From Verrucomicrobiales bacterium (GTDB lineage Bacteria > Verrucomicrobiota > Verrucomicrobiia > Verrucomicrobiales > DEV007): a stretch of 64,000 nucleotides of DNA. Numbering within the stretch: position 1 is the first letter of the stretch; each line of letters starts with the position of its first letter. The translations under genes and the position numbers were made by a program. The stretch is taken from the NCBI GenBank assembly GCA_002698785.1, contig PAAG01000016.1:1-64000 (forward strand). The letters are read 5' to 3'. Of this stretch, positions 1,394 to 22,065 are shown piece after piece. The notes beneath the pieces were generated by a model. The model had not been told where the DNA came from, did not search any database, and saw nothing but the letters and a program-made list of their open reading frames with translations.

Positions 1394-3067
1394 TTAAGAA
1401 ATTACAGCTGCCTCGCCAAAAAGCTCATCGATTTTCTCCGGAACAGCCTCGCTTAAATCCGCGACGATCAATTTATCGATTGCTCGGGAGCAACATACGT
1501 AAAAGAGGTTTCGCGATCGCTTGATTCGGCTCTCACTGGTATCTGTCTGAGCCAAAAGTTTACTGAACGAATATTGGTTCCAATTTGCCCCGGCATCATC
1601 GAGAACTACCAACACGTTCTGAAATTGATCACCCTTTACACCATGCTTAGTCGAATACGGAAGATTATTCCGAATCACGTCGCAGTAGTTGCTAATTTCG
1701 ATGTATGGGATGGCTAAAAGACTTGCCATGAAATCTTGGTGCTTTTCCTCGGGAGTTCCGACCTGTCCATCGACCATATTACCCAAAATCCCCATTTCAA
1801 GATCATCAAGTAGAGGGAGCAGTTCAGAATTTTTTATATGTTTGAGGACTTCCTCAACAGTTCCCTCGCTATCGATCAAGACGACCAACTCATCAAGTGC
1901 ACTCTTCACCCGGGATTTTTCATCATTTGCTGCGATTGGTTTTGCACGATTGCTAAGCAAACTGATAGTACGACCAACTTTTCCTTCCCTCCAAGATTCA
2001 ATCACTGACTCAATCTTCTCGATAAAGAACTTTGCAATAGAATCTTCGCCACTCTGAAACCGGTCACGCGCGAAGCCACCAAGATCGTTGTACACATTCC
2101 AGAGAGCCTCATACCCTGCCTTGCGCGCGATAAGACGATGTGTCAGAAAAAGAACCTTCAACTCGCCCTCCAACTCCACCCCCAATGACTCACGCACCTT
2201 TTGCTGCGCCACTATAGAGAGGTCGCCATTTGGGTCAATCCCCCCTAAATTAACATAAATCGCGGCGCCTTGGAGATTGTTCCCTGCAGGCACCTGTTCA
2301 ATGTCAGTTCGCACATTGTTAAGGAGACTGATCACAGCCTTTGAACAACGATAATTTTCTTCCTTTTTAATTGGCACCAACAAATCACTATGTTCCGAAG
2401 AAAGCTCCCCTACTCCGCTTGAATAGATGCTTTGCATCTTATCGCCAAAAAAACCAAGTAACGGAGGAGAATTTGCTTTCGCCAAGTAGTCGAGTAAAAC
2501 TGAAACCACTAACGGATCAGTGTCTTGATATTCGTCCACAAAAATGACAGGAAACCGTGCAGCAACCAATTTTGACAACATCGGGTAATCGCGAAACATA
2601 ACATGCGCAACACCAAGAAGATCGTCGTGAAACAAGCGACCTTCCAGGAAATTCGCACCACGATCAGAATAGGTAACACCAATGCTGCCCAACGAATCTT
2701 CTAACTCTTTTTGATCCTGTCTTCGGCGGCTTCTAACGGGAAGATTTTCATTGAAGATTTTTAGTGCAACTTTCAACTCCTTCTGAAACGGCTTGATCGC
2801 GGCCCAAAGAAAATCGTGGATTGTAGAAACAACAAAAAGCGGATCATACTCCGTCCTCTCGATGATTTCTTCCTTTGCAACATTAGTGAAAGTGACGCAT
2901 GCAACCCGCTGACTATCTGTCACGACCGCACCGCGACCTTCACCGCGAATGTAGTCAAGAGCACGAATAAGAGATGATGTTTTGCCTGATCCCGCACCAG
3001 CATCCACGAGAAAGCTCCTTCGCGCCTTCAGACACTTAAGTATTTTTGTGTCCGCCTTCGTAGTCAT
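1394..3067 (-). CDS. gajB: Gabija anti-phage protein GajB, UvrD/Rep-like helicase
   Basis: A 557-residue superfamily 1 helicase: Walker A AGAGSGKT (residues 23-30), Walker B DEYQDTD (178-184), a motif IV-like NYRCS, a motif V region around TKHGVKGDQF, and motif VI NLFYVCCSRA near the C-terminus. It is shorter than housekeeping UvrD (about 700 aa) and close in size to GajB proteins. The chosen ATG at 3067 overlaps the stop of the upstream OLD nuclease gene as ATGA, implying translational coupling; an alternative start 8 codons upstream would give a larger overlap. In Gabija systems GajB joins GajA in a complex and is thought to sense nucleotides or DNA ends during infection. The pair is more AT-rich than its surroundings, consistent with horizontal acquisition. 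Confidence 0.88.
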   Translation of the reverse strand: MTTKADTKILKCLKARRSFLVDAGAGSGKTSSLIRALDYIRGEGRGAVVTDSQRVACVTFTNVAKEEIIERTEYDPLFVVSTIHDFLWAAIKPFQKELKVALKIFNENLPVRSRRRQDQKELEDSLGSIGVTYSDRGANFLEGRLFHDDLLGVAHVMFRDYPMLSKLVAARFPVIFVDEYQDTDPLVVSVLLDYLAKANSPPLLGFFGDKMQSIYSSGVGELSSEHSDLLVPIKKEENYRCSKAVISLLNNVRTDIEQVPAGNNLQGAAIYVNLGGIDPNGDLSIVAQQKVRESLGVELEGELKVLFLTHRLIARKAGYEALWNVYNDLGGFARDRFQSGEDSIAKFFIEKIESVIESWREGKVGRTISLLSNRAKPIAANDEKSRVKSALDELVVLIDSEGTVEEVLKHIKNSELLPLLDDLEMGILGNMVDGQVGTPEEKHQDFMASLLAIPYIEISNYCDVIRNNLPYSTKHGVKGDQFQNVLVVLDDAGANWNQYSFSKLLAQTDTSESRIKRSRNLFYVCCSRAIDKLIVADLSEAVPEKIDELFGEAAVIS

Positions 3068-5061
3068 TCCACCTGATGCTGCGCGAGCCAAGAAAGCCCC
3101 TCTTTAATGTAAAGTGGAATATTCCAGCCTGGCATAACCATAAGGTCGAGGGCGAAATCTACCTTTCCTAGTTTACCGCTCAATCCCCACGCCTGATCAG
3201 TGAGCCCACCATCAATCGCCTTCTTAACAGCAGCCTTTGTTGTGCTCAGCTTCTCATAATTGTCTTCTAGCCATGCCAAATTCGAGTAGATAAATGACTC
3301 TTCGAACGATCGCCCACAATGACCGTCTTGCGTAACTTGGTAAGCAACTCGAATGCAACCTCGAATTTTGGCACCAGCGTCACACGCCATCAACTCCGCG
3401 ATTGATCCCTTCTTCGGAATCCAATTGCGCAAACAGGCGTTGCTCGTCCCCTTACCTTTAGCGACAGGGCATTTCTTCCCATTTCCATCAACGGAATCCA
3501 AATCGGTGATAATCAGGGTGGGAATGCCTAGAAAATCTATTATCGGCTTAAACTTGTGTGCGTGGCCGCCCCCAACCTCTGAGATGCTGACATACTGACT
3601 CGTCAAGGTTTCGCAACCCTCAACCTTAGCGAGTTCTTCGATCATCATAGGCAACAGCAGTCGCTCGACTTGCCCTTCAACGAAAATGGCTTTGTCTGCG
3701 AAAAACAGATCGCAATGCGTTAAGCGTACGTAACGGCGCAGGAATCCGAGAAGTTCGGGTTCGTCAACGGGCAACGGAAGCTTCGACAAATCACGTATTG
3801 ATACTTCTCGACCATGACGACGGAAATATCGAATCGGTTCAAACCCAGAATGAGCGATCATGTGCGAGGAGTGAGTAGAAAGCAGAACCTGTGCTCTCGT
3901 GCCGCCATCACTCTCTAGGGCTTTAGAAATCTCGCCAATGAACACCGCTTGCATTTGCGGGTGCAAATGAGCCTCAGGTTCCTCAATCGCAATGATATGA
4001 ACTCGAGGTCTCTCCCCTACAATTGTCTCAACACACGCCCTAAAAGACTCAAGTTGTAACACAATATAAATGAGGTTTTTGTATCCAAGCCCGTTATACT
4101 TTTCCGGTAGTTCAAATTCCTCGGTGACTCCTTCCTTATCGATTTGCTCGCTTGCGTAGTAAATGCGTGCATTATCCTGATAAATCGTTTCAGCATTAAT
4201 TTCTGCACGAACACGGAGGTCGGGCGCGGTCTGGCCTGCCGGATAGCCAAAGCTTTGAAGGCGCTTCGTAAGACGACTGAACGCAAGGCTGTATCGCTTT
4301 GTCAATTCGCTCGAACTTTCCGTCAGCATATCTTCGATTGCCCGGTGTCCCTCCCCATTATCAACTCTATAAAACCGTTCGTAGTGATCGTACAAAAGAT
4401 TCGAGAGCTTTGCCGACCTACTGCCCTCGTCATCATCGACATGACGCTGTGCAGGCACAATATCGATACGCAATAAAGTATTCAGGAGACCCACTTCATC
4501 CACTGTTTCTACCTCCCGACCATCGTGCGAGACCTTAAAAAAGACGCGCTTAAAGTAATCACCGAAACTGTTGTGGAGAAACTCGCAAAGGCTTTGCTCT
4601 TCTCGCGGCCTCTCTTCGAAATCATCGAGTAACTTTTTCGAACTCTCAAGTGCAATCTCGATACGAAGCCGAACTCTGTTCGTACGTTCGTTGAGATCCA
4701 TCAATAATCGAGTGGCAGCTATCAAATCTTCGGGACTCTGGTCGTACGAAAATGTCAGATCTAGCCGCATACGTGGCGAAAATCGCTTCAAGTACCCAAG
4801 CTTCTCCTCAACATTAGAACTGCTGCTAAGCAAATTTTGGATTCGTCGAAAGTCGCGATGCCGAATTTGGGAAAGATCGAAGAATGAAATTCTCGGTGTC
4901 TTCCCTGCTCGACCGACAAAGAGGCGAAGAGCGTCCATTACCGATGTCTTTCCGCTGTTGTTTGGACCAACGAGAACGGTAGTTGTCGTATCGCTAGCGA
5001 GGTCAACCTCAAGTCGGCGCAATAGTCTAAAATTTCTTATTTCTATTGTTTCAAGGCGCAT
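3064..5061 (-). CDS. gajA: Gabija anti-phage protein GajA, OLD-family ATPase/TOPRIM nuclease
   Basis: A 665-residue OLD-family protein. It starts with an SMC/RecF-like fold (IEIRNFRLL) and Walker A GPNNSGKT (residues 32-39), has a long helical middle, then an ABC-type Walker B IAIEEPEAHLHP near residue 355 followed by LLSTHSSHMI. A TOPRIM domain follows, with the acidic glutamate in FVEGQVERLL (about 457) and DLDSVDG (about 517). Class 2 OLD nucleases paired with a UvrD-like helicase define Gabija, which nicks phage DNA when nucleotide pools fall. It is somewhat longer than typical GajA (about 580 aa). A GGAG sequence lies 13 nt upstream of the ATG, a little far for a ribosome binding site. 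No third defence gene is adjacent. Confidence 0.88.
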   Translation of the reverse strand: MRLETIEIRNFRLLRRLEVDLASDTTTTVLVGPNNSGKTSVMDALRLFVGRAGKTPRISFFDLSQIRHRDFRRIQNLLSSSSNVEEKLGYLKRFSPRMRLDLTFSYDQSPEDLIAATRLLMDLNERTNRVRLRIEIALESSKKLLDDFEERPREEQSLCEFLHNSFGDYFKRVFFKVSHDGREVETVDEVGLLNTLLRIDIVPAQRHVDDDEGSRSAKLSNLLYDHYERFYRVDNGEGHRAIEDMLTESSSELTKRYSLAFSRLTKRLQSFGYPAGQTAPDLRVRAEINAETIYQDNARIYYASEQIDKEGVTEEFELPEKYNGLGYKNLIYIVLQLESFRACVETIVGERPRVHIIAIEEPEAHLHPQMQAVFIGEISKALESDGGTRAQVLLSTHSSHMIAHSGFEPIRYFRRHGREVSIRDLSKLPLPVDEPELLGFLRRYVRLTHCDLFFADKAIFVEGQVERLLLPMMIEELAKVEGCETLTSQYVSISEVGGGHAHKFKPIIDFLGIPTLIITDLDSVDGNGKKCPVAKGKGTSNACLRNWIPKKGSIAELMACDAGAKIRGCIRVAYQVTQDGHCGRSFEESFIYSNLAWLEDNYEKLSTTKAAVKKAIDGGLTDQAWGLSGKLGKVDFALDLMVMPGWNIPLYIKEGLSWLAQHQVE

Positions 5062-7805: not shown

Positions 7806-8828
7806 ATGAAACACTTCACCCTTACGGTATTCCTTTCCTTCATCCTATCCCAAGTCCTCATCGCCCAAACCCCGCAGCAGATTGCGGACTATTTCGACAA
7901 ACACCCCGAGGCCGACACAAACAATGACGGCACCCTGACAAGGGAAGAAGCCCGCGCCCATCGCAGAATGAGCCGGGATCCCAGTAGCGGCGACAACGCC
8001 CCTTCCAGATCCGCTATTAGAGGTGCTCAAATCTCCCTGACCGAGTCCCCTATCGAAGAAGTCGCCCTCCAATCCGAAGACGATGTCGACCTCACCTTCG
8101 TCTACCGTAAACCAGTTGGAGAAGGTCCATTCCCCACCATCATCTTTTTTCACGGTGGAGGCTCCACCACCGACCAAAGGACGCTCCAGAACAACCTCCG
8201 TTCCGGCGCCATCCAGACTCGCTTTCTGGAAAAGGATTACCTCACAGTAGCATCCACCCGCCGCCCATACTGGGCTTCCCGACAGAAAGAACGCCCCCAC
8301 GGATTCTACGACGCCGTCAAAGACACCAAAGCCATCATCAAGAAAGTATCCACCCTCCCCGGCGTCGATCCCGAAAACATCATTCTTTACGGAGGTAGCG
8401 GAGGCGGCATCCTCGCCATCGTATCAGCCGCTGGCTCAGATATCGCCGCCGTTATCGCTGGCGAACCCGCCACCGTGATCCCCCTCGATCCCAAGACCGG
8501 ACAAACGGCCACCCCTCGGGACTATGAATCCATAATGGAAGATCCCTTATCCAAATACACCGCGGAAAGAAAAGCAGAGATGCAATCCTGGATGAAAGAG
8601 ATCACCTGCCCCATTCTCCTCCTTCAGGGAAACCACGTCGACCTCTACAAGAGCAACTTCGAACTCCTTATTCCCGAGATGCAAAAGCTCGGCAAAGACA
8701 TCACCGCCATCGAATACCCTGGTCTCTCCCACGGCTTCTACTGGGGCACTCCCCGAACCGGTGCCACCGAAGAAACCGTCGAAAAGGTCATCACCGACTC
8801 ACTCGAGTTTTTGCGAAAAGCGCAGTAA
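7806..8828 (+). CDS. Secreted alpha/beta hydrolase with EF-hand
   Basis: A 340-residue protein. The signal peptide (residues 1-20) is followed by an EF-hand-like calcium loop DTNNDGTLTREE (37-48) and an alpha/beta hydrolase domain. The oxyanion strand reads FFHGGGS, the nucleophile elbow is GGSGG (S198), and a late histidine sits in LSHGFYWG (about 310). These are the features of a dienelactone-hydrolase or esterase-like serine hydrolase; the substrate is unknown. It lies 11 bases after the glycosidase-like gene, suggesting joint expression for polysaccharide or ester degradation. Confidence 0.75.
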   Translation: MKHFTLTVFLSFILSQVLIAQTPQQIADYFDKHPEADTNNDGTLTREEARAHRRMSRDPSSGDNAPSRSAIRGAQISLTESPIEEVALQSEDDVDLTFVYRKPVGEGPFPTIIFFHGGGSTTDQRTLQNNLRSGAIQTRFLEKDYLTVASTRRPYWASRQKERPHGFYDAVKDTKAIIKKVSTLPGVDPENIILYGGSGGGILAIVSAAGSDIAAVIAGEPATVIPLDPKTGQTATPRDYESIMEDPLSKYTAERKAEMQSWMKEITCPILLLQGNHVDLYKSNFELLIPEMQKLGKDITAIEYPGLSHGFYWGTPRTGATEETVEKVITDSLEFLRKAQ

Positions 8829-9084: not shown

Positions 9085-10446
9085 ATGAAACACCTTTCCC
9101 CCGTTTTCGTATCACTCATCTTGGCATTCACCTGCCTGTATACCACTCCCGCCCAGACGGCCCCCTTTCAGGACGGAGAGACGGTCGTTTTCCTCGGAGA
9201 CAGCATCACTCACGGTCGCCAGTATCACAGCTTCATCTACGACTACTACCTCACCCGCTACCCGGATCGAAAGATCCATTTCGTAAATGCAGGGATCTCT
9301 GGTGACAGCGCAGGTGGTGCGATGCGACGCCTCGAAGATGATGTCATCTCAAAATCCCCCACCACCGTCGTCGTCATGCTGGGAATGAATGACGTGGGTC
9401 GCAGCAACTACGTCGCCGATCCTACCGAAAAACAACTCGAAGCACAGGCCGGATCACTCGAGCGATATGAAGCCAATATGGATGCCCTTCTCGACAGGAT
9501 ATCCAAAGAGACGGAGGCAAAATTCATTCTCCTCACGCCTACTCCATTCGACCAAACCGCGGAGATCGAGCGAGAAAACCAGCCAGGCTGCAACGACGGC
9601 CTCGCTAAATGCGCCGAACTGGTTCGCAAGCTCGCAACAAAATACGACGCCCAAGTCATCGACCTTCATGGTCCCATGACCTCTTTCAATCTTGAGCAGC
9701 AGAAAGACGACCCAACCTACACCATCGTCGGTTTCGACCGGGTCCACCCCGGCATTCCCGGAAATGTGATGATGGCCTGGCTATTTCTGAAAGGACAGGA
9801 CGCACCAGCCACCGTTTCTCACATCGAATTCGACGCGGAAGCGAACAAATTCCCGGGCACGAAAAACGCATCCGTCTCCAACCTGCAGATCACGGAAGAT
9901 TCCCGAACATTTTCCGTCGAGGAAGATGCCCTCCCATGGCCTATACACGCCGAAGGCAGCGAACTACTCACAAAACTCCCGATCATCGAAGACCTGAACC
10001 AGCAGATCATCCAGATCAAAAATCTCAAGAGCGGTAACTACACCCTGACCATCGACGGAGAAACTGCCGCCACCCATTCAGCCGAAGAATGGGCAGAAGG
10101 GATCAATCTCGCTACCATCCCCACAACACCCCAATCGATTCAGGCTACCGAAGTCGCAAAGATCAACGAAAAGCGCCGCAGTGCAGAAACTCGTCTGAGA
10201 GGTTACGCTTGTGTCCGCTGGTTTCTCGGCCGCTACATCGACCCCGACGATTTCGAGGCGATCAACGAATTCATGAAATCAAAAGAAGGCGAGACAGGCT
10301 ACTATCTCTCCAAAGTCCCCACCTACCTCGCCGAGTGGGAAAATCGAGGCGAAGTCGAGGCAATGGTCCTGAAACTGGAGAAAGATGCCCAGGAAGCCGC
10401 AAAGCCGGTCCCCCGCATCTACAAACTCACCAAGTCCCAGAATTAG
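9085..10446 (+). CDS. Secreted SGNH/GDSL hydrolase
   Basis: A 453-residue protein with a signal peptide ending near TPAQTAP. Block I is FLGDSITHG (catalytic S40), followed by the block II glycine region VNAGISGDSAGG, block III GMND, and block V DRVHPG (D218, H221), all in order within the first 225 residues. The remaining 230 residues form an extra helical/beta domain often found in PVC esterases. The family removes acetyl or other acyl groups, frequently from polysaccharides. The ATG at 9085 begins the signal peptide. The gene ends a few bases before the tRNA-Sec on the other strand. Confidence 0.82.
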   Translation: MKHLSPVFVSLILAFTCLYTTPAQTAPFQDGETVVFLGDSITHGRQYHSFIYDYYLTRYPDRKIHFVNAGISGDSAGGAMRRLEDDVISKSPTTVVVMLGMNDVGRSNYVADPTEKQLEAQAGSLERYEANMDALLDRISKETEAKFILLTPTPFDQTAEIERENQPGCNDGLAKCAELVRKLATKYDAQVIDLHGPMTSFNLEQQKDDPTYTIVGFDRVHPGIPGNVMMAWLFLKGQDAPATVSHIEFDAEANKFPGTKNASVSNLQITEDSRTFSVEEDALPWPIHAEGSELLTKLPIIEDLNQQIIQIKNLKSGNYTLTIDGETAATHSAEEWAEGINLATIPTTPQSIQATEVAKINEKRRSAETRLRGYACVRWFLGRYIDPDDFEAINEFMKSKEGETGYYLSKVPTYLAEWENRGEVEAMVLKLEKDAQEAAKPVPRIYKLTKSQN

Positions 10447-10452
10447 AGAAAA

Positions 10453-10549
10453 TGGCGGAGAGGGAAGGAATCGAACCAACCATGGCAAGGATCACTTACC
10501 AACAACGGTTTTGAAGACCGCGGGGCCCACCAGGTGCCCATCTCTCTCC
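10453..10549 (-). tRNA. selC: tRNA-Sec (anticodon UCA)
   Basis: Read on the minus strand, the gene starts GGAGAGAG and ends CCTCTCC-G-CCA with an encoded CCA. The anticodon arm GCGGT-CTTCAAA-ACCGT presents UCA and is nearly identical to known bacterial tRNA-Sec arms. The long variable arm pairs TGGTAAG with CTTGCCA over seven base pairs, and a TTCGATT T-loop is present. The long acceptor stem has one A-C mismatch, and the T-stem (GTTGG/CCTTC) contains two tandem U-U mismatches, which is unusual. It lies downstream of the desulfurase and mnmH genes on the same strand. A UGA-containing gene 2.5 kb away supports its function. Confidence 0.85.
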
Positions 10550-10640
10550 TTTTTGGGAGCGAAGCGGAACCATAGACGGTTTACCTCACTCGGGTCAATG
10601 CCCTTTGACGCCATACTCGGCGGAAAATTTCCAGATCTTC

Positions 10641-11786
10641 TCAATTCCCCCGCACATCCCTAACCACCCAGGCAAGCACCTCCACAGCCCGGTCGATTTC
10701 TTCTTCCGTAGTAAAAATTGAAAGAGACAATCTCAGACTGCTAAACGCACGTTCATCAGAAAAGCCCATCGCTTTCTGCACGTGGCTGGGCTGATTCTTC
10801 CCCGTCATGCAGGCACTGCCAGCGGAACACTGAACTCCCGCTTCATCGAGCAGTGGGAGCATCTGCGAAGCCACACATCCATCGAAAGAAACATGAGCCA
10901 CATTCGCAGTGCGATGTTCTCGGGAACCATTCAACTGCACTCCCTTGATTTTCGCCGCCAGGCTCTCCTCCAACAAATCCCGCAGTTCCCCAACCCTCTT
11001 CATGCCTCCGTTCTCCATTTCATCCTTCATGATCTCGGCCGCTTTTCCGAGTCCCATGATGTAGGGCACATTTTCCGTTCCACTTCTTCGCCCGCTCTCC
11101 TGCCCACCTCCCCGAATCATCGGCTCAAACGGGCTACCCTCTCGGATATAAAGACAGCCCACTCCCTTGGGAGCGTGAAACTTATGCCCGCTGATGGAGA
11201 GAAAATCTACCGGCACCTCATCTACCCTTACGGGCACCTTCCCGGCAGCTTGAATCGCATCTGTATGAACCCACCAACCGGCCTCCTTCGCTAGAGCAGT
11301 AGCTTCTGAAATGGGTTGCACTACACCCGTCTCATTATTCGCCCACATGATGGAAATAAATCCCGGCACCGACGAATCGAGACGATTTTGGAAATCCTCC
11401 AGATCCAGCCGCCCCTCTGTGTCTACTCCTACTCTCTCCACATCAAAACCGACAGCCGCCATCGCGTCAGTCGGCCGCAGCACAGCACTGTGCTCAATTT
11501 CACTAACCAATACCTTGCTCGCTTTCCGTCCGATCTCACGGGCCAGCGACTTAATCGCCATATTGTTAGACTCCGTGCCGCAGCCAGTGAACACAATCTC
11601 TGACGGTTTTGCTCCGATCAATTCAGCGACTTGTTCTCTTGCCCTACCCACTGCAGCTTTCACATCTCTCCCGGCCCTATACCCTGAAGAAGGATTATGC
11701 CACGCCTCCTTGAGGTATGGCATCATAGCCTCCACCACCTCAGGATGAACCTGTGAAGTCGCATTCGAATCGAGATACACCGACAT
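10641..11786 (-). CDS. Cysteine desulfurase, NifS/IscS family
   Basis: A 381-residue fold-type I PLP enzyme. The Schiff-base lysine is in SISGHKFHAPKG (K202), the PLP-stacking histidine in EIEHSAV (H99), and the catalytic cysteine in CSAGSAC (C326). GRRSGTENVP is the usual NifS-group signature. It converts cysteine to alanine, leaving an enzyme persulfide; members can also act on selenocysteine and deliver selenium to selenophosphate synthetase. It lies 28 bases after mnmH and upstream of tRNA-Sec on the same strand, so a role in selenium supply is a reasonable inference, although Fe-S or tRNA thiolation roles are equally possible. Confidence 0.9.
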   Translation of the reverse strand: MSVYLDSNATSQVHPEVVEAMMPYLKEAWHNPSSGYRAGRDVKAAVGRAREQVAELIGAKPSEIVFTGCGTESNNMAIKSLAREIGRKASKVLVSEIEHSAVLRPTDAMAAVGFDVERVGVDTEGRLDLEDFQNRLDSSVPGFISIMWANNETGVVQPISEATALAKEAGWWVHTDAIQAAGKVPVRVDEVPVDFLSISGHKFHAPKGVGCLYIREGSPFEPMIRGGGQESGRRSGTENVPYIMGLGKAAEIMKDEMENGGMKRVGELRDLLEESLAAKIKGVQLNGSREHRTANVAHVSFDGCVASQMLPLLDEAGVQCSAGSACMTGKNQPSHVQKAMGFSDERAFSSLRLSLSIFTTEEEIDRAVEVLAWVVRDVRGN

Positions 11787-11814
11787 GTATCGAGAATACG
11801 TATGCCCTTCTCAA

Positions 11815-12891
11815 TTAGCAAGGAAGAGGCTCACCGAAGGAAAGAGCCATTCCCTTTTCGATGACTTCTTCCGCACACCTCGCCACGCTAGCTGAGTCGT
11901 GCCGATCGAGCTTCACCTTCCCCGAAGGAACCTGAAAATGCCCCGTCCCACCGACCTTGTAGCGCCGATCATAGTGCTCCTCAAGAAGCTCGAGCACCAG
12001 TGCATTCCACTCTCCTCGTTCTGTTCGCTCTTTCCACTCCGCCAGTCTTTGATGAGAATGAAATCCCCTCAACCGATCGAGCGTCGCCTGCACTCGCTCG
12101 ATATCCCCAAGCCACTCCTCATAGTCTTTTGTAAGGTAGTCAGCTCTCGCCTGCCTGGGTGAATCGATCTCGATCACTGGTGCTGACTTCATTTTCTGCC
12201 AGAGCGTATTGGGTAAATTCAATCGTCCTATCTTGGCACTTTCAGCTTCAAGAAAGATAGGCCGGGACAAATCGAAATCAGAGAGGGAATCAAACAACAG
12301 AGACTCAAATCGCTTCTGCTGAGGCTGAGGATTCTCCGGATCCCCTCCAAAGACCGATCCCTTATGACAGGCCAGTCCTTCGAGGTCCAGCATTTGCCCG
12401 CCTTGCGCTTCGATCGCCTGCAAAACGAGCGTCTTACCTGCGCCCGTATAGCCATTCAAAACAACAAAGGCAGCATTCGCTACCTGCTCCTCCAACCGCT
12501 CAACCACATGTCGCCGATAGGCACGGTAGCCGTCCTCAATCACGAAAACTTTCCACCCAATGCTACTGAGCACCGTTGCCATGCTCCCCGACCGTTGACC
12601 GCCTCTCCAGCAATACAGCAAGACCGAATACTCTTTCGACTTGTCTGAAAAGTGCTCCTCCAAGTGTTGGGAGATATTCTTCGAAACCAGCGCCGCCCCC
12701 ACCTTCCGGGCATTAAAAGCGGACTCCTGCTTGTATATCCACCCCACTTTCTGGCGCTCCTCGTCTGTGAGGACAGGCAGGTTGATTGCCCCTGTCACAT
12801 GATCCTCAGCATATTCCACGGGCGCACGAACATCCACGATCTCGTCAAAAACGACATCATCAGAAAGTGGAAGGGTCACTCTTCGGATCAT
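11815..12891 (-). CDS. mnmH: tRNA 2-selenouridine synthase
   Basis: A 358-residue protein with an N-terminal rhodanese domain carrying the active-site cysteine in LLYCWRGGQRS (C94), followed by a P-loop domain with GYTGAGKT (147-154). This exact domain order and the CWRGGQRS loop are diagnostic of MnmH/SelU (YbbB). The enzyme replaces sulfur by selenium at the wobble uridine of tRNAs via geranylated intermediates, using selenophosphate. Its presence means the cell should also have SelD, which is not in this window. First gene of a probable mnmH-nifS(-selC) unit, divergent from the selenoprotein gene. Confidence 0.95.
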   Translation of the reverse strand: MIRRVTLPLSDDVVFDEIVDVRAPVEYAEDHVTGAINLPVLTDEERQKVGWIYKQESAFNARKVGAALVSKNISQHLEEHFSDKSKEYSVLLYCWRGGQRSGSMATVLSSIGWKVFVIEDGYRAYRRHVVERLEEQVANAAFVVLNGYTGAGKTLVLQAIEAQGGQMLDLEGLACHKGSVFGGDPENPQPQQKRFESLLFDSLSDFDLSRPIFLEAESAKIGRLNLPNTLWQKMKSAPVIEIDSPRQARADYLTKDYEEWLGDIERVQATLDRLRGFHSHQRLAEWKERTERGEWNALVLELLEEHYDRRYKVGGTGHFQVPSGKVKLDRHDSASVARCAEEVIEKGMALSFGEPLPC

Positions 12892-12927
12892 TTGGAGTCG
12901 ACAATCAGGGGAAACTTACAGTAAAAA

Positions 12928-12957
12928 CGTGACGAATTTGCGGAGATTTCTGTCACG
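12928..12957. promoter_or_regulatory. Inverted repeat CGTGAC-N18-GTCACG between mnmH and the selenoprotein gene
   Basis: CGTGAC (12928-12933) and GTCACG (12952-12957) form a perfect 6-bp inverted repeat in the 135-bp divergent spacer. The right half with its flank reads TGTCACG, followed after 15 more bases by CCGTAT (12973-12978), which resembles an ECF41-type promoter. It could serve as a dual promoter or operator. Confidence 0.35.
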
Positions 12958-13026
12958 ACAACACCTGTTAATCCGTATACAGAAGGTAACAGGGAGACAG
13001 AAAGTCGCCCAAACACAACTAAATCC

Positions 13027-13374
13027 ATGAAAAAACTACTCGCAACTCTTGCAGTGGCGGTCCTGGCTCTCGCTTCTACAGCGATGGCTGAGGAGGTCGT
13101 ATACGTGGCCGGGATGACCGGCGTCACGTGAGGCGGATGTAAAAGGGACGTCAGTTCGGCGTTCTCCAGCCTGCCGGGGTATATCGAAGAATCGATTACC
13201 ATTGAAAACGGAGAAGAACCAGGTACCCAGGTCGTAACGTTCAAGACCGACGGTTCCGAAGATCTCACAAAAGAGAAGGCTGTAGAGTCTCTCGGTGAGA
13301 AAGCGGAGCGCTACGTCGTCGAGACATTCGGCAAAGAAGGCGAAGAGCCTGAGGGTGAAGAAAAAGAAAGCTGA
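13027..13374 (+). CDS. Predicted selenoprotein: secreted HMA/MerP-like domain with UxxC (in-frame UGA)
   Basis: A 115-codon gene read through a UGA at 13129-13131 (residue 35). Residues 1-21 are a signal peptide (LASTAMA). Next come VVYVAGMTGVT, Sec35, Gly-Gly, Cys38, then KRDVSSAFSSLPGY, which follows the heavy-metal-associated (HMA/MerP) pattern GMTCxxC...ALxxLPGV with the first cysteine replaced by selenocysteine. The C-terminus is acidic (EGEEPEGEEKES). Downstream of the UGA a hairpin (13145-13167) is placed like a bacterial SECIS. A tRNA-Sec gene lies 2.5 kb away, and a strong terminator follows at 13404. The frame holds on both sides of the UGA. It likely acts in the periplasm as a metal-binding or thiol/selenol redox protein. 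A pseudogene with a nonsense mutation is the alternative. Confidence 0.82.
13145..13167 (+). promoter_or_regulatory. Candidate bacterial SECIS hairpin
   Basis: GGGACG (13145-13150) can pair with CGTTCTCC (13160-13167), with two single-U bulges, around a 9-base apical loop TCAGTTCGG. The loop begins 19 bases after the UGA, within the 16-37 nt window usual for bSECIS, and contains G residues as SelB recognition requires. Confidence 0.5.
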
Positions 13375-13403
13375 TCCTTTCTGTTCTTATCCTAAGTAAT
13401 TTA

Positions 13404-13438
13404 AAAAGCCCCGGCGCTTCTGTGCCGGGGCTTTTTTT
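13404..13438 (+). terminator. Rho-independent terminator after the selenoprotein gene
   Basis: A perfect stem of twelve pairs (13404-13415 with 13424-13435, core GCCCCGGC/GCCGGGGC) around an 8-base loop, followed by a run of seven T. It lies 30 bases after the stop codon at 13374 and isolates the gene from the large operon that follows. Confidence 0.95.
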
Positions 13439-13539
13439 CGGCCCGAATCCTGCGACGGAGTTAGGGCGGATACGCGCTCCCAAGCAGTAAAATGGACGCT
13501 GGCACTCCCTCTAGGAGTATGGTTTATTGACAGTTAAAG

Positions 13540-16500
13540 ATGGCGGATTCCTCACAGATCGAATCGTCCGCCCGTCAGACAGACGGCGACCTGTCGATTC
13601 CTTCCCGATTGCAGCACAACTTGGAGACCTTCCAGGAGCGGCTGTGGTCTGTCAAAATGGCTGAAGGAGCGCTCGCCGGTATCGTGGGTTTGGGGTTTTC
13701 CTATCTGATCGTTTTCATTCTCGATCGTTTCGTTGATACCCCCTCCCTGGTTCGCCTCTTGATTCTGCTGTCAGGCTTCCTTGTTCCCGCACTCGGCTTA
13801 CCACTGCGCTGGAAACAATGGGTCTGGAGACAGCGTAGCCTCGAACAATTATCTCGCCTTCTGCGCCGACGGTTTCCGCGTCTCGGTGATGAACTGCTCG
13901 GTATCGTAGAGCTCGCTCGCAGACCGGGATCGGGTGCCAGCCAGACACTCGTAGCTGCGGCGATGAAGCAAGTCGACGAACGCCTCCAAACGCGAAACTT
14001 CTGCGAAGCTGTTCCGGCACGACATTACGGTACCTGGCTCGCTGCCGCCGTTGCTCTACTAGCTCTGTCCACACTGCTTGCATGCCTGGTGAATGAGGCA
14101 TCCCGCAATGCGCTGGTGCGATGGGTATCACCGTGGAAACAGGTAGACCGGTATACATTCACGAAAATCGAAGACCTCCCACAGAAAGTCTTCGTTCCCT
14201 ACGCCGAGAACTTCGATCTCGCCCCCACTCTTGCCGAAGATTCCGAATGGAGACCAGATATCGCCACTATCAGACTTCCGGGAAAATCGCGTATTGCCAG
14301 CGAGCGGGATGGCGAAGTTTACGATTTCAACATTCCTCCCCAGAAGGAGAACGGTTCTCTTTCCCTGCGCATTGGCGATGTGAAAGAAACTATCGAAGTA
14401 AAACCACTTCCCCGCCCCGAACTCACCGAACTTTCTGCTGTTCTACGGCTGCCAGACTATCTCCGATATGAATCCGATCCTGTCGTTCCCATTCGAGGCA
14501 ATTCGATTACACTGGTGGAAGGTGCGGTAGCCAGATTTCGAGGTACAGCTTCAAGGGATCTCGCCGATGCCTCGGCAAACGGGATCGCAGCTTCCATAGA
14601 CGGACCCAATTTTGAAACCGATCCGCAACAAGTCGACGAAGCTTTCACATCTAAACTGACATGGAGCGATGTTCATGGTCTCAAAGCCAAGTCTGATCTC
14701 GAGATCCAGGTCGTACCTACCGAAGATACTCCACCTGACATTTTCGCAAAAATGCTGACCGACGAGCGCGTCATCCTCGAAGACGAAGTAGTTTCTTTTG
14801 ACGTGTCTGCGCTGGACGATTTCGGAATCAAAAAGGTTGGCATCGAATGGCGTCCCGCACAGCCTCTTGAAACGCCGGAAGCTTCCCAGGGAGAGAAACC
14901 AGTCGCTGCGGGAGGTCCGGAATCGAAAGAGATCCAGGCCCGAGCCACTTTTTCAGCAGCCAGGGAAGGCGTCTCCCCTCAGACGCTCCATGTCCGAGCT
15001 TTCGCTGAAGATTTTCTCCCGGACCGGCAGCGAAGCTTTTCCCCTACCTTTGTCTTGCACGTCCTGGCCCCGACTGAACACGCCAAATGGCTGACCGAAG
15101 AATTCGGAAAATGGTTTCGCCACGCGAGAGAAGTCTACGAACAGGAACGCCAACTCTACGAAACAAACAAGTCATTACGGTCTCTCACCGCTGAAGAACT
15201 GGATCGACCAGAGAATCGACGTCGGCTTGAAGAACAAGCATCCGCAGAAACGGGAAATGCCCGGCGCCTTGATGCGCTCACAGATTCTGGCCGCGACCTT
15301 GTCCAACAGGCCACGAAAAACAATGAATTCGATGCCAACCGTCTTGAAACGTGGGCGGAGATGATGCGTGCTTTGGATGACATCGCCGAAAACCGCATGC
15401 CTTCCGTCTCTGACTTACTAAAGAAATCGTCCCATGCCGCAGGAGGCACGATGAAAAAGCCCGAAGAACAGTCGGGAAAACAGAATAGCGAACAGTCAGA
15501 ATCGACTTCTGCAACGTCCCCTTCCGTGAGTGACCGGGAAAAGGCTTTGGTCGAAGATGAGTCCTCTAACAACTCTCCGGAAAAAGCCGGCAAAAACTCT
15601 TCCGCATTGGGCCTGCCTCAAACCATGCTCGATAGTGTCGCGGAGGAAGATACCAAGGAAGCAACAGAGCCCCAGTCCGAAGCCCAACAAAAATTGGACG
15701 AAGCCCTCGATGAACAAGACGACCTCATCAATGAGTTTGCGAAAGTTGCGGATGAACTGCAGCAAATTCTTTCCAGCCTCGAAGCCAGCACATTCGTGAA
15801 ACGCTTCAAGGCTGCATCGCGCAAACAGACTGAGATTGCCAAGCGTCTCAACGGAACCTTAGGGAGCAGTTTCGGCCTGGCAAAACATCGGATCGAACAG
15901 CAACTTCGAGACGTAGCTGAAGAGACCGCAGTGGAACAGGAGGAACAAAGCCGTTTCATCTACGACATTCAATCCGATCTGGAAGCCTACTTCCAAAGAA
16001 AGCAGGAATCTCTCTTCGAAAACGTTCTCCTCCAGATGAAGGATGCGTCCGTAGTATCCAATATAAAGTCCATAGGAGAGAGCACCCGGACCAATCTGAA
16101 CGGACGCTCAATTGCAGCCTCTGAATTCTGGGCTGATACCCTAGACCGGTGGGCAGAAGAATTGGTAGCCGCTGCGGAAGAAAGCGGAAAAGGAGATCAG
16201 AAAGAGGGCCAGGAGAAAGACGGTCTCCCTCCAGAGATCGTTCTCCAGATCATGAAAGTCTTGCACGAGGAAATGCAACTTCGGGACGAGACTCGAGAGA
16301 TGGAATCAGCCCGTCCAGGGCTCTCTCCTGATGTCTACGAAGAAAAGACGCAATCCCTGGAATACACGCAGCAAGAGCTCCGCGAGAGAACGGACGAGGT
16401 GGTCACTTCGATTTCTGAACTACCAGACGCATCGAGGCAGTTTGGCAAAGAGCTTCAGTTGCTCTCGCTCGTTTCCGATATCATGAGAGAATCGCGTGCA

Positions 16501-18825: not shown

Positions 18826-21800
18826 ATGTCGATTTCCGTATCCAGATTGATCGCTTCACTAACACTGCTACTCACCGTCGCTGTGTTTGGACAGTGGTCG
18901 CTGCATGGCGAAGATGATCACTATGCATGGCTGAGTTGGAGAAACGGAGATGAGTTGAAAGGAAGGATTCTCCAGAGCGAAGAAGAGAAAATCCGATGGG
19001 GCAGCTTTGCATTCGCCTCTCCCCTTTCCGTAAGTGTGAACCAACTGAAAGGGGTGCGATTCTCATCTACTAAAGTGGAAAGTAGCCAGAATGACGAAAA
19101 CTTTCGAATCATTCTAAACAATGGAGACCGACTTCACGGAAACCTTCTCGCGATAGACGAGAATACAATCACCATCTCCTGCGGGTCGTTCACAGAACCG
19201 CTGCAAATCAACAAGCCCTCAATACGTCGCATCATTCATATCCGTAGCAATCACCTCCGGTTTTCAGGTCCTGGAGAACTGGACGGATGGACTTCGAACG
19301 GGCGGGATCGAAAACCAACCGACTGGTTTACCGATCTGAGAGGAGAATTCGCAACCCATCAGTGGTCTGGAAATCTGTTTCGAGAGATAGAATTTCCCGA
19401 AAGTGTCGAAGTTGAGTTCCGCGCTCGCTTTCCGCTGGGCAACCCAAGTCTCGAAGTCGGATTTCTTCGCGAGCCAGGCCAAGGACCGATGCTGGAAACT
19501 TGGGACGACCACCTGGTCCTCACATTCGGAACACAATTTGTTCCCGTGATGCAACTCACGTCGGACACTCGGAAGCTCGAATTTCGAGTCTTCTGGAACC
19601 AGTTGACGGGAGAAGTGCAGGTTTGTTCCCTGTCAGGCAAACAGCTTGCCTCACTTTCTGGACCATCCGTTGATCGCATTAGTGGTTCAGAAAAACATTC
19701 CCGCTCCAACGCCCCTCTGCAAAGAGGATTTTCCATCCTGAGCCGCACGCCAGAACTCAAATTATCGTCCCTGACAGTACGCGAATGGAATGGAAAAGCG
19801 GTGCCTGAGGTTGATCTCAGCCAGCCCCGCCTTTCACTTCATGATCGCCCTGCACGCTTTCGCATCGACGATGTTTTCTTGGAACCGGGTTCGGCGAAGC
19901 TCAGAATAGGAAATTCCAGCGTCCCGTTGAATCAGCTCGAAGAAATGGTGGTATCACCAGACCGGGAAATCGATATCGAGACAGCGCAGGCAAATTCGAC
20001 TCGTATCGCCTGGCACAATGGATCATCTGTTGGAGGAAAGTTTGTTCGGCTTGATAATTCCCGGCTCACAGTCCAGCCAGAGTGGTCCTCTGCAGAAGTG
20101 GCAGCCACTCTTTCTAATGCAAAAGAGATTCGATTCCCTGAAGAGGCAGAACCAATTGAAACCTCTTCCGATCAGCTCTCAAGCAACGGGCTGTTTCTAC
20201 ATGGAACAGTTCGCATCCTGCAATCCACCCAACCAAATAGTGACGCCCCCAGTATTATTGGTTGGCAGGCAGCTGGTGCCGATCAAGCCGTTCCCCTGGC
20301 GGAAGATCTCAAGGCCACCATTGTTCGAGATTCTTTTCCCTCTTCAAGCCCCGAAGCACTTGCAACAGTAGGCCAGGCAAGACTCTATCTCACGAATGAT
20401 GAAATTCTCGTTGGAACGCTTAAGGCGGCCGACAATGAGTCAGTTCAATTTCGGAGTCGTATTACAGGGCCGCTGACCATTCCCGCCGAACAGATTCGAG
20501 CGATCGACATTGGTAATGCAGGGCGGGTTCTCGAAGGGTTTGGCGACACAGAATGGGAAGCCACCGAAGAAGTCGAAGGCGAAGTCATCGTTGAAAACGA
20601 AACGGTCCTTCTCAAAGGAGGAAGCTACGGAAACCCTTCCATTCTCATTGGCGATCGCGTCCACTTCGACCTTGAATGGAAACAATCCTACGGGGCAATT
20701 ACTCTTCGCCTATTTGCCTCCGGGCCAGATCCCAATACTCCTTCAACGGACATTATTGTTGCGGCACAGGGGAATCGCCTTTTCATCGGAAAGTTGAAGG
20801 ACAACGGAGCGTTTTCATTTTCCGGTGATCAGATCCCCCTCTCTGGAAGCAAAGCCAGTTTCGAAGTCATCGCCCTCCACGATAAGCTTGAGATTGTAGT
20901 AAACAATAAGTCGACCTTATCTATCCCTATTGAAAAGGACCGCGTCTCTGGAAACGGTATCTACTTTAAGATGGGCGGTGGTTGGCAGGGATGGAATCAG
21001 GTCGACAACCAGGTCGAGATCACAAACTTCCTCATCGAATGCTCACCCGGTAGCCTTCCGCCCCATATCATTGCATCCGATGCTAGGGAACGGCTACTCA
21101 AGATTCCCCGGTCACTCCGTGAGAACATCCCAACACATCTTCTCATCGCACCAAATGGAGACCTTCTTCGCGGGAAACTCGTTTCCGTGAACGGCAATTC
21201 GATCCAGTTCGATTCTGGTGAAGAGTCGCTGAAACTCCCCCTGAACAGAGTCTCTGCAATCGTGTGGCTACGCGAAGAACCAACTCCTCCCGAAGAGAAA
21301 GACACAACAGGAGATACCCTGTTCAATCCTTTCGAAGACCCCTACTACCAGGAGATTCAAAAGTTCAATTTCAAGGTAACCCACCAGTTAGTCCTTAGCG
21401 ATGGCTCACGCCTGCGTCTTGCCGCCGATCAGGCGCAGGACAACCAGTTGATAGGAGAGTCCTCTGTTCTCGGTACCTGCCGAGTCTCTTTGGAAAACGT
21501 TCAGAAAATCGACCGGAGTCCCGCGACCCCCATCCACAAGCTCGGCAAGATGGATGTCGTGGCGTTCGAAGGATGGCACATCAGCTTCACACCAGAGCCT
21601 GACATCCCGGAAGAAGGTGAGCCACAGACCTCGCCACTGATTGGAAAGCCTGCCCCCGATTTCAAGCTGACCATGATGGATGATTCGACTTTCGAGTTGA
21701 GCGAGCAAAAAGGGAAAGTGGTGGTGCTCGACTTCTGGGCCACCTGGTGTGGTCCCTGCATCAAGGCAATGCCCGACGTCCAGGCTGCTGTCGAAGCATT

Positions 21801-22065
21801 CCCTCCCGAACTCGTTTCTTTCTGCGCTATCAACCAGGCGGAAACAACCCCCATAGTCACTGGTTTCCTGGAAAAACGCGAGTGGGATCACCTACCTGTA
21901 GCCCTCGATTTCAACATGAAAACGAGCCGGGACTACGAAGTTGATGCGATTCCACACACAGTCGTAATCGACACGGCCGGAAAAGTTTCTTGGATACACA
22001 CCGGTTACGACGAGAACCTCAAGCGGAAGCTCTTCGACGCCATCAGGAAGGCTGCCTCACCTTAA
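18826..22065 (+). CDS. Multi-repeat secreted protein with C-terminal TlpA/thioredoxin domain
   Basis: 1079 residues with a signal peptide (about 1-28). A short beta repeat with the pattern NGDxLxGxL...I.F......L.I..I..I recurs around residues 40, 99, 395, 522, 773 and 855, interspersed with two longer jelly-roll-like segments. The last 140 residues are a thioredoxin/TlpA-type domain with VVLDFWATWCGPC (C975, C978) and a cis-proline-like DAIPHTVVID. The protein probably reduces or relays disulfides in the periplasm, with the repeats acting as binding modules; this is inference. Last gene of the operon. Confidence 0.82.
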   Translation: MSISVSRLIASLTLLLTVAVFGQWSLHGEDDHYAWLSWRNGDELKGRILQSEEEKIRWGSFAFASPLSVSVNQLKGVRFSSTKVESSQNDENFRIILNNGDRLHGNLLAIDENTITISCGSFTEPLQINKPSIRRIIHIRSNHLRFSGPGELDGWTSNGRDRKPTDWFTDLRGEFATHQWSGNLFREIEFPESVEVEFRARFPLGNPSLEVGFLREPGQGPMLETWDDHLVLTFGTQFVPVMQLTSDTRKLEFRVFWNQLTGEVQVCSLSGKQLASLSGPSVDRISGSEKHSRSNAPLQRGFSILSRTPELKLSSLTVREWNGKAVPEVDLSQPRLSLHDRPARFRIDDVFLEPGSAKLRIGNSSVPLNQLEEMVVSPDREIDIETAQANSTRIAWHNGSSVGGKFVRLDNSRLTVQPEWSSAEVAATLSNAKEIRFPEEAEPIETSSDQLSSNGLFLHGTVRILQSTQPNSDAPSIIGWQAAGADQAVPLAEDLKATIVRDSFPSSSPEALATVGQARLYLTNDEILVGTLKAADNESVQFRSRITGPLTIPAEQIRAIDIGNAGRVLEGFGDTEWEATEEVEGEVIVENETVLLKGGSYGNPSILIGDRVHFDLEWKQSYGAITLRLFASGPDPNTPSTDIIVAAQGNRLFIGKLKDNGAFSFSGDQIPLSGSKASFEVIALHDKLEIVVNNKSTLSIPIEKDRVSGNGIYFKMGGGWQGWNQVDNQVEITNFLIECSPGSLPPHIIASDARERLLKIPRSLRENIPTHLLIAPNGDLLRGKLVSVNGNSIQFDSGEESLKLPLNRVSAIVWLREEPTPPEEKDTTGDTLFNPFEDPYYQEIQKFNFKVTHQLVLSDGSRLRLAADQAQDNQLIGESSVLGTCRVSLENVQKIDRSPATPIHKLGKMDVVAFEGWHISFTPEPDIPEEGEPQTSPLIGKPAPDFKLTMMDDSTFELSEQKGKVVVLDFWATWCGPCIKAMPDVQAAVEAFPPELVSFCAINQAETTPIVTGFLEKREWDHLPVALDFNMKTSRDYEVDAIPHTVVIDTAGKVSWIHTGYDENLKRKLFDAIRKAASP

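Follow-up and report, generated by a model that had tools for sequence, protein, structure and literature searches.

The window analyzed here is the whole stretch of 64,000 nucleotides of Verrucomicrobiales DNA, and it carries on its forward strand a reading frame that is interrupted by one TGA codon (Table 1). A preliminary description of this DNA had proposed a 115-codon gene with a signal peptide, an intact downstream frame and a terminator, split by a single UGA where the first cysteine of the CxxC motif of a heavy-metal-associated (HMA) domain belongs (Sec35-Gly-Gly-Cys38). The sequence and its translation agree with this gene structure, and the placement of the UGA is borne out by the translation, Pfam, a profile search and a structural model. 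Codon 35 is the sole in-frame TGA before the stop, and the translated frame is open from there to a second TGA (13372-13374), which ends the gene. CxxC is the metal-holding motif of HMA domains, and the TGA of the window gene replaces its first cysteine. The second one (Cys38) does not vary in either protein alignment (29 and 61 rows). The terminator that follows is built of eight G-C pairs plus A-T pairs and then a T run.

Table 1. Positions in the window of the predicted selenoprotein gene, its parts and its selenium-related neighbors.
Feature	Position	Strand	Basis or detail
Predicted selenoprotein gene	13027-13374	+	ATG 13027, 115 codons plus stop; translation, Pfam, model
Signal-peptide-like start, residues 1-21	about 13027-13089	+	judged by eye
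One HMA domain	within 13027-13374	+	Pfam
In-frame TGA, predicted Sec35, first ligand position of U-G-G-C	13129-13131	+	translation, codon-level alignments
Cys38 codon, second ligand position	13138-13140	+	protein alignments
Apical stem-loop of SECIS-like element, ACGUC AGUUC GGCGU, loop 13153-13157	13148-13162	+	covariation in alignment
Intrinsic terminator, AAAAAGCCCCGGC - loop - GCCGGGGC - T run	13403-13438	+	sequence; 13416-13431 portion also found computationally
tRNA-Sec, anticodon TCA	10453-10547 (Rfam: 10456-10550)	-	ARAGORN; Rfam RF01852
NifS/IscS-like cysteine desulfurase	10641-11786	-	NCBIfam/Pfam scan
mnmH/selU, tRNA 2-selenouridine synthase, divergent neighbor	11815-12891	-	NCBIfam, 442.9 bits vs 266

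The assignment to the HMA class depends in part on the residue entered at position 35. With C substituted for U, the protein passes the cut-off of the Pfam HMA model PF00403 (E 9e-6, 26.4 bits vs 24.8), and with X at this residue the score drops to 18.1 bits, which is under the cut-off. The same Pfam model matches 18 of the 29 members of homolog set A1 at E ≤0.01, and a profile search of the PDB finds HMA proteins, including MerP 1afi at 7.2e-7. An AlphaFold2 model computed from 61 rows with Cys in place of Sec has a mean pLDDT of 84.6 and the element order beta-alpha-beta-beta-alpha-beta, with helix 1 starting at residue 36. This is the HMA order, in which CxxC precedes helix 1. Foldseek returned no PDB match to the model at E 0.001 or better. 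Structural alignment gives Z 9.0 for the HMA domain of ZntA, 8.3 for a plant HMA7 domain and 8.1 for MerP (1osd), but ribosomal S6 permutants, which are unrelated in function, also reach Z 8.1, a warning that the arrangement is common. A thioredoxin fold was not found: HMA is the only domain that Pfam detects, and the order of elements is that of HMA.

Homologs were sought at several taxonomic depths. A read-through search matched 56 of the 74 genomes of the taxonomic family, and codon-by-codon checking of 69 of the 86 listed places yielded 50 with TGA (44 genomes) and 19 with TGC or TGT; the remaining 17 places show no TGA (15 with none, one with TAG and one with TAA). Across the order, a profile search matched 152 of 386 genomes. 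From the matches listed, 39 places were chosen non-randomly, mostly high-scoring and outside the family, and they divide into 15 with TGA (14 genomes) and 24 with Cys. Taken together, 65 aligned rows from 58 genomes of the order carry TGA at this codon (50 family rows and 15 others) and 43 rows carry TGC or TGT, as anticipated by the earlier prediction that relatives would have either Sec or Cys at position 35. In an even sample of 387 genomes from the phylum, 11 matched, of which nine belong to the same order, including the window's own genome, and two marginal matches (E about 4e-4) lie outside it. A scan of genome contigs with the single window protein as query found no relative; with the alignment as query it found 47 loci, all verrucomicrobial.

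Some of these relatives have unusual features of their own. At loci L073 (about 7982-8548, minus strand) and L066 (2735-3202, plus strand), one frame holds two HMA domains, each with its own TGA, and both appear to encode double selenoproteins, although the L066 frame is truncated at the contig end. A TGA-type homolog also lies at 3001-3378 of a contig of 196,877 bases in a viral collection (L190, IMGVR_UViG_3300030419_007641). Its neighbor resembles one found beside bacterial copies, which suggests that this may be a mis-sorted bacterial contig.

Selection on the two parts of the frame was compared over 148 pairs of TGA genes, which overlap and are non-independent, so that no error bars are given. 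The pN/pS ratio amounts to 0.24 upstream of the TGA, 0.22 over the 12 codons that follow it and 0.28 from there on. Purifying selection after the TGA is about as strong as before it.

The RNA that follows the TGA forms a stem of five base pairs, at positions 20-24 and 30-34 counted from the T of TGA. Its conservation was assessed in 61 distinct stretches out of the 65 rows, one row with N and three duplicates having been removed. Pairing is found in 98.0% of cells, vs 91.4 ± 0.5 in shuffled alignments, and two-sided changes occur in 22 cells, vs 3.4 ± 1.6 in shuffles, none of 500 of which reaches that number. The covariation of the stem is 0.280, whereas versions slid along the alignment give 0.102 at most. 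The pair 21-33 occurs as CG, UA, AU, GC and UG, and the pair 23-31 is open in 5 of the 61 sequences. One of the five covariation measures is weak: 3 pairs show a two-sided change, vs 1.8 ± 0.7, a count that 63 of 500 shuffles reach. In the 43 Cys rows the same positions do not pair as a helix. The preliminary description had pointed to a SECIS-like hairpin, and a conserved, covarying stem indeed follows the TGA.

The loop begins 21 nucleotides after the TGA. A G is present in its first two positions in all 65 rows, and GU occupies positions 2-3 in 64 of them. Both the distance and the loop G are within what the published model of bacterial SECIS elements allows, as given in the examined parts of a 2026 review and catalog of selenoproteins (PMC13188914). 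The window element folds at -16.5 kcal/mol, vs a published bSECIS limit of -7.5, and two TGA rows are above that limit (-7.3 and -5.3). However, over the same 54 nucleotides the Cys homologs range from -5.3 to -16.2 kcal/mol and the TGA rows from -5.3 to -19.5. Because the Cys homologs fold as well, folding energy was dropped as a test in favor of covariation. For a number of TGA rows, the lowest-energy fold lacks the apical stem.

The genome has the machinery for selenocysteine insertion. The tRNA-Sec gene (59 bits vs 47 in the Rfam search) lies 2.5 kb from the HMA gene, and between the two are mnmH and the NifS-like desulfurase, for which no NCBIfam equivalog scores above its cut-off among the matches listed. 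Another contig of the same assembly (C53) carries selA, selB and selD. The selB match scores 265.3 bits (290.2 when a second stretch is counted), vs a cut-off of 242.25, and selD has an in-frame TGA of its own at codon 22. The absence of this machinery would have counted against the proposal made in the preliminary description, but SelA, SelB, SelD and tRNA-Sec are all present.

Several observations concern these machinery genes themselves. In selD (L113, 16571-17644, minus strand) the stem after the TGA has the loop GGUCU, in contrast to AGUUC or CGUGN in the HMA genes, which means that a single SelB would need to recognize both kinds; a loop common to selD and the HMA genes was sought and none was found. 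An ABC transporter set lies between selA and selB in the same locus (L113, G000:C53:43000-62017, about 9427-14913, minus strand). Its substrate-binding protein passes TIGR04553, 'putative selenate ABC transporter substrate-binding protein' (265.2 vs 250), and the set further holds a PhnC-like ATPase and two PhnE-like permeases, with an ORF of 613 residues among them. SelD matches without TGA, perhaps SelD fusions, occur in long frames of 763 and 772 residues in two other genomes (G018:C77 and G025:C148), the second of which also has a TGA-type selD. At locus L055, ARAGORN reports two tRNA-Sec genes, at 10887-10979 and 11587-11681.

The distribution of the TGA gene follows that of selA. Among the 74 family genomes, 42 have both, 2 the TGA gene only, 7 selA only and 23 neither (Fisher 6e-11, with genomes that are not independent). 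The two TGA genomes without a counted selA are 59% and 53% complete (G046 and G048), and for two of the 42 (G035 and G065) selA is counted from partial matches under the curated cut-off. When the comparison is confined to the 41 family genomes that are at least 90% complete, the corresponding counts are 23, 0, 2 and 16. Outside the family, 37 ortholog genomes show the same pattern: selA is found in all 14 with the TGA form and in none of the 23 that have the Cys form alone. One genome (G117) has selA together with a TGA copy and a Cys copy.

A tree was made from 106 of the 108 rows (two with N were omitted) and 86 columns, with the Sec/Cys residue masked. It sets 18 Cys paralogs apart and joins 23 other Cys rows in a clade that lies among TGA rows (support 95/79); one further Cys row (G165) stands alone among TGA rows. 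The tree needs three changes of the Sec/Cys label, two of which are forced by well-supported branches. If the root is on the paralog side, then the simplest reading would be one gain and two returns to Cys. This reading is only suggestive because the tree has just 86 columns and the G165 row sits on a long branch next to a second one. The G165 genome has TGT at the codon and no selA, and it keeps the 5' half of the SECIS-like element while the 3' half is broken; this half-element is weak fossil evidence since the protein is conserved there too. Returns from Sec to Cys are described as rare events, known mainly from formate dehydrogenase and SelD (PMC1794560 and PMC13188914, in the parts examined).

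The neighborhood of the gene differs between genera, and therefore no operon partner fixes its function. Divergent orientation to mnmH is seen for the TGA gene in 20 of the 50 family rows, from 18 loci that all belong to two genera (g1 and g8), and tRNA-Sec is found in 12 of 48 scanned loci, as well as in the window. All seven rows of another genus (g5) have a ZnuA-type gene directly upstream of the TGA gene (Pfam check on one). Neither arrangement was seen in the other genera. Of 13 family Cys rows with context, nine have a ZnuA- or ZnuB-type gene near, or ten if an ABC ATPase alone is counted. Pfam detects ZnuA, ABC and ABC-3 in one Cys-paralog locus and ZnuA in a second. The neighbor families are single-linkage BLAST clusters, so these names rest on the few members tested.

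A palindrome, TGCAA-N5-TTGCA, is present in 15 of 19 stretches upstream of Cys-type HMA paralogs (for example L105, L106 and L109). It adjoins ZnuA-type genes and a His-rich gene that matches no Pfam model, and perhaps it is a zinc-regulator box. A search for a promoter motif common to the TGA genes and to the zinc-linked Cys paralogs did not place the palindrome among the leading dyads in the TGA groups.

We estimate a probability of roughly 95% that the window gene makes a selenoprotein, given the comparative sequence evidence: the TGA is conserved, selection continues after it, the stem covaries, the machinery matches and Cys orthologs occur in genomes without selA. Codon 35 would be read as selenocysteine by SelB and tRNA-Sec, aided by the hairpin just downstream. 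A gene caller would report an in-frame stop codon here, which could mean a pseudogene, an error in the sequence or genuine termination after a peptide of 34 residues. This reading is extremely improbable and we regard it as already refuted by comparative evidence, because the same TGA recurs in 65 rows from 58 genomes, is followed by sequence under selection and by a covarying stem, and alternates with Cys. The chance that TGA has been reassigned genome-wide, for example to Trp, is put lower still. No support for reassignment was found: the window gene and several of its homologs themselves end in TGA, other window genes read as intact frames with table 11, whether their stop is TAA, TAG or TGA, and tRNA-Sec, SelA and SelB are present.

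What the selenoprotein does is a separate question. A role as a metal carrier or scavenger is somewhat favored. The product would be exported, probably to the periplasm, and the chain would fold as a small HMA domain in which Sec takes the place of the first metal-ligand cysteine (U35-G-G-C38). U35 and C38 could then bind a soft metal ion and deliver it to a recipient. The ZnuA- and ZnuB-type genes near the Cys paralogs, and the g5 TGA genes placed just after a ZnuA-type gene, are counted in favor of metal handling. Alternatively, U35-x-x-C38 might act as a selenenylsulfide/dithiol couple on the HMA fold that reduces or oxidizes a periplasmic partner, since a redox function is presumed for most uncharacterized UxxC/CxxU selenoproteins (examined parts of PMC13188914). 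A TlpA/AhpC-TSA-type thioredoxin domain protein is encoded at 18826-22065, in a gene run kept downstream in 13-14 loci. However, this run is shared synteny and a separate terminator-bounded unit, the domain is HMA and not thioredoxin-like by profile and model, and metal-uptake genes accompany the Cys paralogs. We consider a redox role unlikely. A protein that handles selenium, for example by binding selenide or a metal selenide, would explain the place beside mnmH, the NifS-like gene and tRNA-Sec, and the counts of such loci given above speak for it. Yet all of these loci belong to g1 and g8, where the downstream genes are conserved too and the arrangement may be plain synteny, and Cys orthologs occur in genomes that lack selA. 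A role in selenium handling is thus quite improbable.

The metal-carrier reading can be carried further, although the fuller version falls a little short of even odds. The protein would be a free periplasmic carrier in which the selenol is a metal ligand and not a redox residue. Within one order, Sec and Cys would have switched in step with machinery kept or lost, with one or more returns from Sec to Cys in a family outside the few on record. The tree suggests such a return following machinery loss. As one small soluble domain is found with Sec in some orthologs and with Cys in others, the benefit of Sec in metal binding can be tested directly. The findings also add a well-supported candidate to the selenoprotein families, one that standard gene prediction would end at residue 34.

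As far as could be seen, this family is new as a named family. The 2026 review counts 119 families or subfamilies of selenoproteins, and neither its examined parts (PMC13188914) nor NCBIfam 20.0 contains a name for this one. In the open-license PMC literature, no paper was found on a secreted single-HMA UxxC family in Verrucomicrobiales. The preliminary description had called HMA domains with selenocysteine little described, which is right, yet a MerP selenoprotein and a UxxU metal-binding family are already in print. The former comes from a 2008 study of the GOS marine metagenome, the examined parts of which report two Sec sequences from one sample and no Cys homologs (PMC2398784). Its motif is not given there, and the likeness is one of description, MerP being a periplasmic HMA protein; the name is absent from the examined parts of the 2026 table (PMC13188914).

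The earlier label 'HMA/MerP-like' holds for HMA, on which Pfam, the profile search and the model agree, and for MerP in a loose sense only. The window protein shares size, predicted export and a single HMA domain with MerP, the periplasmic mercury-binding protein. It has Sec instead of Cys, scores 21.9 bits vs a TIGR02052 cut-off of 92.55, and no mer gene is among the neighbors scanned. Other near entries in the examined parts of the 2026 catalog are MerT (PF02411), (2Fe-2S) CopZ-family proteins and the cation-transporting ATPase E1-E2 selenoprotein (TIGR01525) (PMC13188914). The last is alike in metal transport and in its UxxC motif, but it is a large membrane ATPase, whereas the window protein would be a free secreted HMA domain. 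The family UxxU_metal_bind (NF041115), cataloged there as 'Metal-binding protein (putative mercuric reductase)', is also a metal-binding selenoprotein of HMA-like type, in which Sec occupies the first ligand position. The similarity is weak: the window protein scores 13.7 bits vs a cut-off of 95, and the model matches 7 of the 29 members of A1 at E ≤0.01 (best 4.4e-5). The two also differ in their motifs, as NF041115 proteins have two Sec residues (UxxU) and the window protein has one (UxxC).
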